64,000 nt of DNA from a bacterium (lineage in GTDB: Bacteria > Vulcanimicrobiota > JABDET01). Both the position numbers and the translations under genes were made by a program. Numbering within the stretch: position 1 is the stretch's first letter; each line of letters opens with the position of its first letter. Positions 27,069-28,508 of the stretch are shown piece after piece. The notes under the pieces are model-generated. The model searched no databases. It was not told the origin of the DNA and saw nothing but the letters and a program-made list of their open reading frames with translations. The stretch covers positions 186,001-250,000 of the forward strand of contig JAJYZB010000001.1 of the NCBI GenBank assembly GCA_021800275.1. The letters run 5' to 3'.

Positions 27069-28211
27069 TTGGGTGGAGTTATTCACGCTGTAAGCAAAGC
27101 TGCGGGTGATGTTGGAGGAGCTCTGCACAAAGCCGCGGACGCAGTGGGAAATGCTGTTGACTCAGCAGGAAAAGCAGTTTCAAGCGCTGGCAAAGACATT
27201 CAAAATGGAGTAGATTCAGCAGGAAACTGGGTGGACAACCATGTGGATGGAGCTGTAGATTCATTTGAACATTCTGCGATTGGAAACAATGTGGTCGGGC
27301 GCTTTCTTGGAAGCGCTGTAAAAGACACAACTCATTTCTCAACAGGGGTAGTCTCAGGAGCCACAAGTCTTGTTTCAGGGACTACAGAACTTGCTGGTGG
27401 AGCGATGCAGTACGCTTCAAACAGCAAATTCAGAACCACAGCCAACAAAGAAATAGGCTATGTTGTCAGCCACCCCGGTCAGGTTGCTAGCGCTGTATGG
27501 AAAAGTGGAGTGCAATCCTTTGAGAAAGATCCTGCTCATGCAGCAGGGGAACTGGCAGGTGTTATTGGCTCAACAATTTTAACGGGTGGATTAGGAGCTG
27601 CAGGGGATGCAGGAGAAGGTGGAGGTCTTGCAGGGGATGCAGTTGACACAGCCAATGCAGCCTCAAAAGCAGCAGACACAGCCAATGCAGCAGGAACTGG
27701 AACCCGCGATATTTCCGCACTTACAAAAGAATTTGCGGCAAAAGTAGGGGCTTTCGGAAAAAGTGATGCCACAGACCAGGAAATTTTAGATGAGCTGAAA
27801 GGGTTTGGCCATGGGGTCAGTGAGCACTTCCCTGGAGGTGAAAAAGCATCTGACGCATTTCTGCAGCAAAGCGTCGAAAAAGGAGCTGAATCAGCAACAC
27901 GATTTACTTCTGAACAGGCGGCTGTGGATACTGCAAAACAGTCTTTAAACGCTTTTACAGAACGGGCGGCTCAAGATCCAGAATTTGCATCTAAACTCCA
28001 GGATTTTTTAGATGGAAAACAGCCTGCAGTAGGAACTATTTTTGATACAGGGAAGCCTATAGGGGAAGGTTTTATAAAAGGCACTGATGGAACTGCTCAA
28101 AAACTGGAAGGTATTACTAAAGCATACGCCAGGCTCAAATGGAGCGGTGGGAAGCCTGGAACAGGGATCATCAAAATTCTTACTCTTTACCCCAAATATG
28201 TTCATCCATAA
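27069..28211 (+). CDS. Polymorphic toxin with C-terminal RNase A-like domain
   Basis: The start is probably TTG 27069, eight bases after AGGAGG; GTG 27063 is only two bases from it. The product is 380 residues. Residues 1-65 repeat small amphipathic A/G/D-rich units, and 85-190 hold an Ala/Gly-rich pre-toxin region with hydrophobic stretches. The last 140 residues match the bacterial RNase A-like domain of CdiA C-termini (Bact_RNase_A): candidate histidines at 248 and 253, Arg278 in ATRFTS, a helix AVDTAKQSL, and a terminal ILTLYP with Thr372-x-Tyr374, which in the characterised relative act in RNA cleavage. There is no signal peptide and no LXG or RHS part, so the export route is unclear. 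The immunity gene follows directly. Confidence 0.78.
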   Translation: MGGVIHAVSKAAGDVGGALHKAADAVGNAVDSAGKAVSSAGKDIQNGVDSAGNWVDNHVDGAVDSFEHSAIGNNVVGRFLGSAVKDTTHFSTGVVSGATSLVSGTTELAGGAMQYASNSKFRTTANKEIGYVVSHPGQVASAVWKSGVQSFEKDPAHAAGELAGVIGSTILTGGLGAAGDAGEGGGLAGDAVDTANAASKAADTANAAGTGTRDISALTKEFAAKVGAFGKSDATDQEILDELKGFGHGVSEHFPGGEKASDAFLQQSVEKGAESATRFTSEQAAVDTAKQSLNAFTERAAQDPEFASKLQDFLDGKQPAVGTIFDTGKPIGEGFIKGTDGTAQKLEGITKAYARLKWSGGKPGTGIIKILTLYPKYVHP

Positions 28212-28226
28212 AAGGAGCAGCCGCAG

Positions 28227-28508
28227 GTGGTGAGTGAAAACAGTGAAATAAAATTCTTGGGTGAAGAACTGGAAGGATATTTTGGAGACGAATATCAAGA
28301 TCAGGCTGCTGTGGAAGAAATAAAAAAAGACCTCCTTGATTACCCCGAATATGCTAAAAAAATTCAACACGCTTTTGAACAAATCTTATCAAATCCAAAA
28401 TTTCTCTGCCTCCCTTTTGTAAAACAGTACGCTAATCGCAGTCTGGGAAATTCGGAAGAAAAAGCCCGCCTCTGGCTGTCCCAACTGAAAAATTCACTTT
28501 TCGGATAA
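28227..28508 (+). CDS. CdiI-like immunity protein
   Basis: This 93-residue acidic protein starts with GTG (28227) after AAGGAG, sixteen bases behind the toxin stop. The pattern [13 protein letters not shown] at the front, a long middle helix and the C-terminal [13 protein letters not shown] fits the CdiI_2 immunity family that pairs with RNase A-like and other CdiA toxins. It should bind and neutralise the upstream toxin in the cytoplasm. Its end overlaps the end of the convergent tgt gene by 15 bases. Confidence 0.75.

Follow-up and report, generated by a model that had tools for sequence, protein, structure and literature searches.

In toxins of the CdiA, RHS and LXG types the N-terminal carrier is conserved, whereas the C-terminal payloads can be exchanged and are accompanied by immunity genes. 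For one such payload, the RNase A-like CdiA-CT Ykris, the catalytic residues are H175, R186, T276 and Y278 (PMC9086364). An RNase A fold, detected by structure and not by sequence, is present also in MafB2-CT of Neisseria meningitidis, which is mounted on a MafB carrier, has a three-histidine active site and is blocked by the adjacent immunity protein MafI2 (PMC9970974). Short RNase A-like proteins, each with a CdiI_2 immunity gene, have been annotated elsewhere: a 293-aa protein of Rhizobium tumorigenes (WP_111217192.1), encoded in a T6SS cluster with Hcp and VgrG on either side, and a 277-aa protein of Pantoea vagans (WP_041456389.1).

The locus described here lies in the window, a 64,000-nucleotide stretch corresponding to positions 186001-250000 of contig C28 in a 2.46-Mb genome of 33 contigs. 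It resembles the Yersinia kristensenii CdiA-CT/CdiI pair (5E3E) in having a homologous C-terminal domain of full length with the base His and the T-x-Y motif and a small, predicted helical product of the downstream gene, but it lacks a TPS domain or CdiB-type part, and the catalytic Arg is replaced. With MafB2-CT/MafI2 it shares the arrangement of an RNase A-type toxin next to its putative immunity gene. Like the short toxins of Rhizobium and Pantoea, the window protein is helical at its N-terminus, aligns with PF18431 at its C-terminus and has a putative immunity gene next to it; its N-terminus is of another kind, however, its neighbor is not of the CdiI_2 type, and the T6SS marker TssB is absent from the genome, whereas the Rhizobium toxin lies in a T6SS cluster. 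LXG, TPS and RHS domains had no match on the protein, as the sequence-only reading had stated.

The two ORFs, 27069-28211 and 28227-28508, sit between purL and tgt, and their extents (380 aa and 93 aa) are as originally described. The program-called toxin ORF begins at GTG 27063 (382-aa numbering; subtracting 2 gives the 380-aa numbering used here). The spacing between AGGAGG and this GTG is only 2 nt, as opposed to 8 nt to TTG 27069, and the N-termini of the relatives start with MGG[V/I] or SWWGG[I]; TTG 27069 is therefore the better start. Just 5' of this ribosome site there is a small perfect hairpin, TCGCAGATTCTGCGA, at 27029-27043. The features of the locus are the following:

27055-27060, plus strand: Shine-Dalgarno sequence AGGAGG, 8 nt from TTG 27069 (read in the sequence)
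27069-28211, plus strand: putative toxin gene, 380 aa, carrier and RNase A-like C-terminus
27069-27266, plus strand: A/G/D-rich amphipathic N-terminal repeat, 11-residue period (lag-11 identity; near-perfect 11-mers in loci L078 and L025)
27252-27626, plus strand: conserved carrier core, Gly/Ala-rich (alignments with carrier relatives)
27627-27740, plus strand: low-complexity linker with TANAASKAAD-type repeats (read in the sequence; repeat analysis)
27807-28193, plus strand: RNase A-like toxin domain, PF18431 positions 1-113 (His248, His253, Thr372 and Tyr374 on invariant positions)
28212-28217, plus strand: Shine-Dalgarno sequence AAGGAG, 9 nt ahead of GTG 28227 (read in the sequence)
28227-28508, plus strand: putative immunity gene for an acidic 93-aa protein (pI 4.8) predicted to fold as a five-helix bundle

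The C-terminus had been assigned to the RNase A-like toxins by eye. In a profile search, residues ~247-375 (249-377 in the 382-aa numbering) matched PF18431, the Pfam family RNAse_A_bac of bacterial RNase A-like toxin domains, over the whole model (positions 1-113 of 113), with a score of 18.8 bits (E 0.0029), which is below the curated cut-off of 27 bits. Because this score was weak, three further tests were made, using relatives, profile-profile comparison and HMM ranking. Among the relatives of the same architecture, the paralog on contig C19 scored 25.3 bits, whereas the toxin of the congener (genome G002) reached 27.9 bits in the genome search, above the cut-off, and 25.8 in another search. 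When the three copies of the genus were aligned as a profile with six canonical domains taken from plasmids and from other families of the phylum, the probability was 97.2% (E 3.7e-11 over the domain), and both histidines (H....H) as well as T-x-Y-P fell in register. An HMM built from the six canonical domains alone and run against 1290 ORFs placed the C19 and congener toxins at the top (E values near 1e-9) and the window toxin third (0.022), ahead of every unrelated ORF; the window domain obtained 13.4 bits, compared with at most 7.7 across 5000 shuffles. These sequence comparisons support the assignment of the last ~130 residues to a diverged RNase A-like domain.

A mixed profile, consisting of the genus copies and three canonical domains from the phylum, matched PDB entry 5E3E_B, the CdiA-CT of Yersinia kristensenii, with an E value of 3.4e-16, whereas a profile restricted to the three genus copies did not find 5E3E; the link between the window family and this structure thus depends on intermediates. 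Among the copies of the domain, that of the window has diverged most, its C-terminus being 29-30% identical to the relatives, and when compared singly with the PDB sequences it yielded only helical-bundle noise, e.g. cytochrome b562. An AlphaFold2 model of the full toxin, computed from three sequences, had a pLDDT of 35 and was discarded. A PF18431 match in a further genome, G089, was rejected as spurious: it covered only 43 model positions and had no toxin-like ORF.

The invariant columns of the toxin alignment are H24, H29, T148, Y150 and P151. The window toxin retains His253, Thr372 and Tyr374, in agreement with the T-x-Y motif and conserved His noted earlier, together with a second invariant His, His248. 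The claim of a conserved arginine, in contrast, was unsupported. In the 5E3E sequence the Arg is located 11 residues past the base His; judged from the alignment and from this spacing, the position equivalent to R186 is occupied by Ser in the window toxin and by Glu in both relatives. In MafB2, a toxin of the RNase A fold, the equivalent lysines are dispensable (PMC9970974).

The toxin stop codon and the start of the partner gene are separated by 15 nt, the right place for an immunity gene, as is the size of its product. A small gene lies directly downstream in all three RNase copies (the window protein is 29-30% identical to the other two), and the encoded proteins are acidic throughout (pI 4.6-4.8). 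Its description as CdiI-like did not hold. The protein had no match in Pfam or NCBIfam, including CdiI_2 (PF18593), and hhalign comparison of the partner family with CdiI_2 proteins gave a probability of 0.7%. The AlphaFold2 model is a five-helix bundle (pLDDT 85.5), for which a fold search against solved structures returned nothing at E <= 0.001 (best E 3.1). By sequence, the partner family does not align with the CdiI_2 proteins that come next to canonical RNase A-like toxins of the same phylum, Rhizobium and Pantoea. We consider the partner a putative immunity protein because of its position, size, charge and co-inheritance; it matches no known family.

The N-terminal part was described in the sequence-only reading as a series of short A/G/D-rich amphipathic repeats followed by an Ala/Gly-rich region, and the repeat analysis bore this out: over the first 70 residues the lag-11 identity was 0.36, compared with 0.11 in shuffles, a value reached by none of 2000 shuffled sequences, and the 11-residue period spans the first ~66 residues. 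The core that follows contains the motifs SFEHS.IGNN..G, F.TGV..G...LV.G, HPG.VA..W and KDPA.AAGE and is weakly hydrophobic without a clear transmembrane helix; the hydropathy maximum of the toxin is 1.15, no segment looks transmembrane-like, and no signal peptide was seen by eye. Neither Pfam nor NCBIfam holds a family for this carrier.

The toxin had been called an orphan, a term that no longer applies since its carrier recurs in the genome and in the genus with other C-termini. The N-terminal ~200 residues are found on contig C29 (71% identical) ahead of a PI3/PI4-kinase-like C-terminus (PF00454, E 1.1e-9), and contig C19 of the same genome carries a second RNase A payload on the same carrier. 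The congener has one carrier with RNase A, one with kinase and one without payload. In another family of the phylum, the carrier occurs in two genomes of 7.7-8.4 Mb, at L026 with a ~90-residue end of no known domain and at L027 with LysM before it and DnaJ after it. The last ~90 residues of the carrier protein in genome G137 had no match in Pfam and no meaningful match in the PDB. The carrier is present in only 4-5 of the 149 genomes of the phylum, and when 84,980 species were scanned with a pattern, the congener MAG alone matched. By its sequence relatives, this arrangement of one carrier with differing C-termini (RNase A, PI3/PI4-kinase, DnaJ and other ends) corresponds to that of polymorphic-toxin carriers. 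The protein part is not exclusively a toxin carrier, because one relative lacks a recognizable payload and one ends in DnaJ. The notion that a small, self-contained carrier would be unusual needs to be divided accordingly: small RNase A-like proteins of 277-293 aa are annotated elsewhere, but this particular carrier is indeed unusual.

Several related genes were observed in the course of this survey. Near-perfect 11-residue repeats (SSGLNTAGNAV, SGGLNTAGQDV) occur in proteins encoded at L078:1222-1869 (minus strand) and L025:6609-7616 (plus strand), which share the MGGVGS start and are without toxin domain. A 73-aa fragment resembling the carrier middle, possibly a decayed copy, is encoded at L009:8349-8570 (minus strand) and adjoins a phospholipase D-like gene. 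About 10 kb upstream of the toxin gene, at window positions 16723-17730 (plus strand), there is a free-standing 335-aa kinase-like protein without carrier, which matches PF00454, weakly also HipA_2 and Fam20C, and is 31% identical to the C29 kinase payload. Downstream of the carrier-kinase gene, a putative metallopeptidase (weak PF15887, LDHEAGHSIDFA) is encoded at L008:7129-8397 and L024:2347-3615. The gene after it (~106 aa) is weakly like (E 2e-5) the 108-aa gene behind the carrier-kinase gene of the congener; these genes may represent further effector-partner pairs.

The C19 and congener copies bear on the mobility of the unit. They are 91% identical over 1772 bp, a segment that comprises about 120 bp upstream sequence, toxin and immunity gene, and the match stops at the immunity stop codon, the flanks being unlike. 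The dS values were 0.18 for the toxin and 0.27 for the partner. Of eight other gene pairs, by contrast, seven (tgt, purL and the carrier-kinase gene among them) had values of 1.1-2.1; the exception, hsp20 (dS 0.41), is a strongly conserved gene. Given the low dS relative to the other pairs and the unlike flanks, these data indicate that an RNase-immunity unit was transferred between these species or close relatives of them. C19 is a contig of only 3590 bp and could be mis-binned, but because the flanks are unlike, movement is favored whether or not this is the case. The carrier-kinase gene stands next to larE in an order conserved in both genomes; in the congener purL and tgt are on separate contigs. 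By tblastn, no match was found in phages (searched with the congener toxin) or in plasmids (window and congener toxins), nor in viral contigs searched with the window toxin.

The markers of delivery systems covered were T6SS TssB, the contractile sheath and WXG100. TssB (PF05591) was found in none of the four carrier genomes, with a positive E. coli control, and the same was true for the contractile sheath of eCIS and phage tails (PF04984; control positive); WXG100 proteins were detected neither in this genome nor in the congener. Thus, the earlier remark that no delivery system is visible stood for T6SS, eCIS and WXG100. A CDI arrangement found no support either: the toxin is without TPS domain, and its neighbors are purL and tgt, with no adjacent cdiB.

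Two candidate routes were rejected. FHIPEP matches might be taken as a sign of an injectisome, but the full-length gene on contig C8 is part of a flagellar operon (fliG-fliH-fliI-flgE-fliM-fliP-fliR-flhB-flhA), as is the second copy in the congener, and FlhA/FHIPEP is therefore not injectisome evidence. As for the TPS route, the ShlB-type gene on contig C22 is split into two ORFs here, and the congener has no large exoprotein gene adjacent. This ShlB/POTRA-type transporter (L055:908-2494, minus strand) is a single 546-aa ORF in the congener; the split may reflect a genuine frameshift or, so close to the end of the contig, a fault of the assembly. Proteins with only the FlhA/FHIPEP cytoplasmic domain were seen at L027:370-2691, at L055:2681-4915 and in many places in genomes G135 and G137. 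In each of two large genomes there are more than 10 FlhA-cytoplasmic-domain matches beyond the full-length genes, and the gene for one such protein lies some 8 kb away from that for the LysM-carrier-DnaJ protein.

Taking together the homology, the exchange of payloads, the conservation of the partner and the transfer, we think that the pair probably encodes a polymorphic toxin of the RNase A-like type, directed at other bacteria and mounted on a carrier not described before, together with its immunity protein. The first ~200 residues would be the shared carrier, which probably exports the protein and brings it into or onto a neighboring cell; in this recipient the last ~130 residues would cut RNA, His253 serving as the general base and Thr372/Tyr374 acting on the acid side. 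The 93-aa protein, acidic and predicted to be helical, would bind the nuclease and thereby protect the producer and its kin. It is unlikely, by our estimate, that the pair is instead an intracellular toxin-antitoxin or phage-defense module, in which the RNase acts in its own cell and the N-terminal helices sense or localize. Such a module would be compatible with the failure to locate a secretion system among the markers tested and with the lack of a signal peptide, with the compact, laterally mobile two-gene unit and with the stand-alone relative of the kinase payload that has no carrier; but no PADLOC model matched the toxin or the partner, a single carrier with exchanged C-termini is how exported polymorphic toxins are built, and elsewhere the carriers known to bear RNase A-like domains are exported ones.

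It seems quite unlikely to us that the copy in the window is decaying, as a displaced toxin cassette retained only through its carrier or its immunity gene after loss of the catalytic arginine. It is the most diverged copy, with the Arg position lost and the C-terminus at 29-30% identity. Nevertheless, the 380-codon frame is intact with well-spaced ribosome sites, the His and T-x-Y-P are kept, the Arg is absent from the well-preserved relatives as well, and the equivalent lysines of MafB2 are, as cited above, dispensable. We also find it improbable that the carrier belongs to a structural or surface protein family whose enzymes target the envelope of the producer itself, or serve predation or symbiosis, and do not act on competitors; the payload-free repeat proteins of L078 and L025 and the LysM-carrier-DnaJ protein of the other family would fit, but a conserved small partner straight after every RNase copy is a mark of self-protection. 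With respect to the polymorphic toxin reading, a stronger version seems rather unlikely: the 11-residue repeat helix and Gly-rich core might themselves form the export and membrane-crossing device of lineage-restricted toxins with RNase A, kinase and other payloads, which use no known secretion system and, for RNase A, are paired with a new immunity family.

The nuclease type, the two-gene layout and the existence of short RNase A-like toxins are already known; the carrier and the immunity family are new. RNase A-like toxins would thereby gain a carrier without Pfam family and an immunity family without known relative, and a toxin-immunity block of about 1.8 kb appears to move between species of a little-studied lineage. 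If the carrier does not deliver the payload alone, this would point to an unrecognized secretion route in a flagellated diderm without the tested T6SS, eCIS and WXG100 markers; if it does, it would represent a minimal delivery device.
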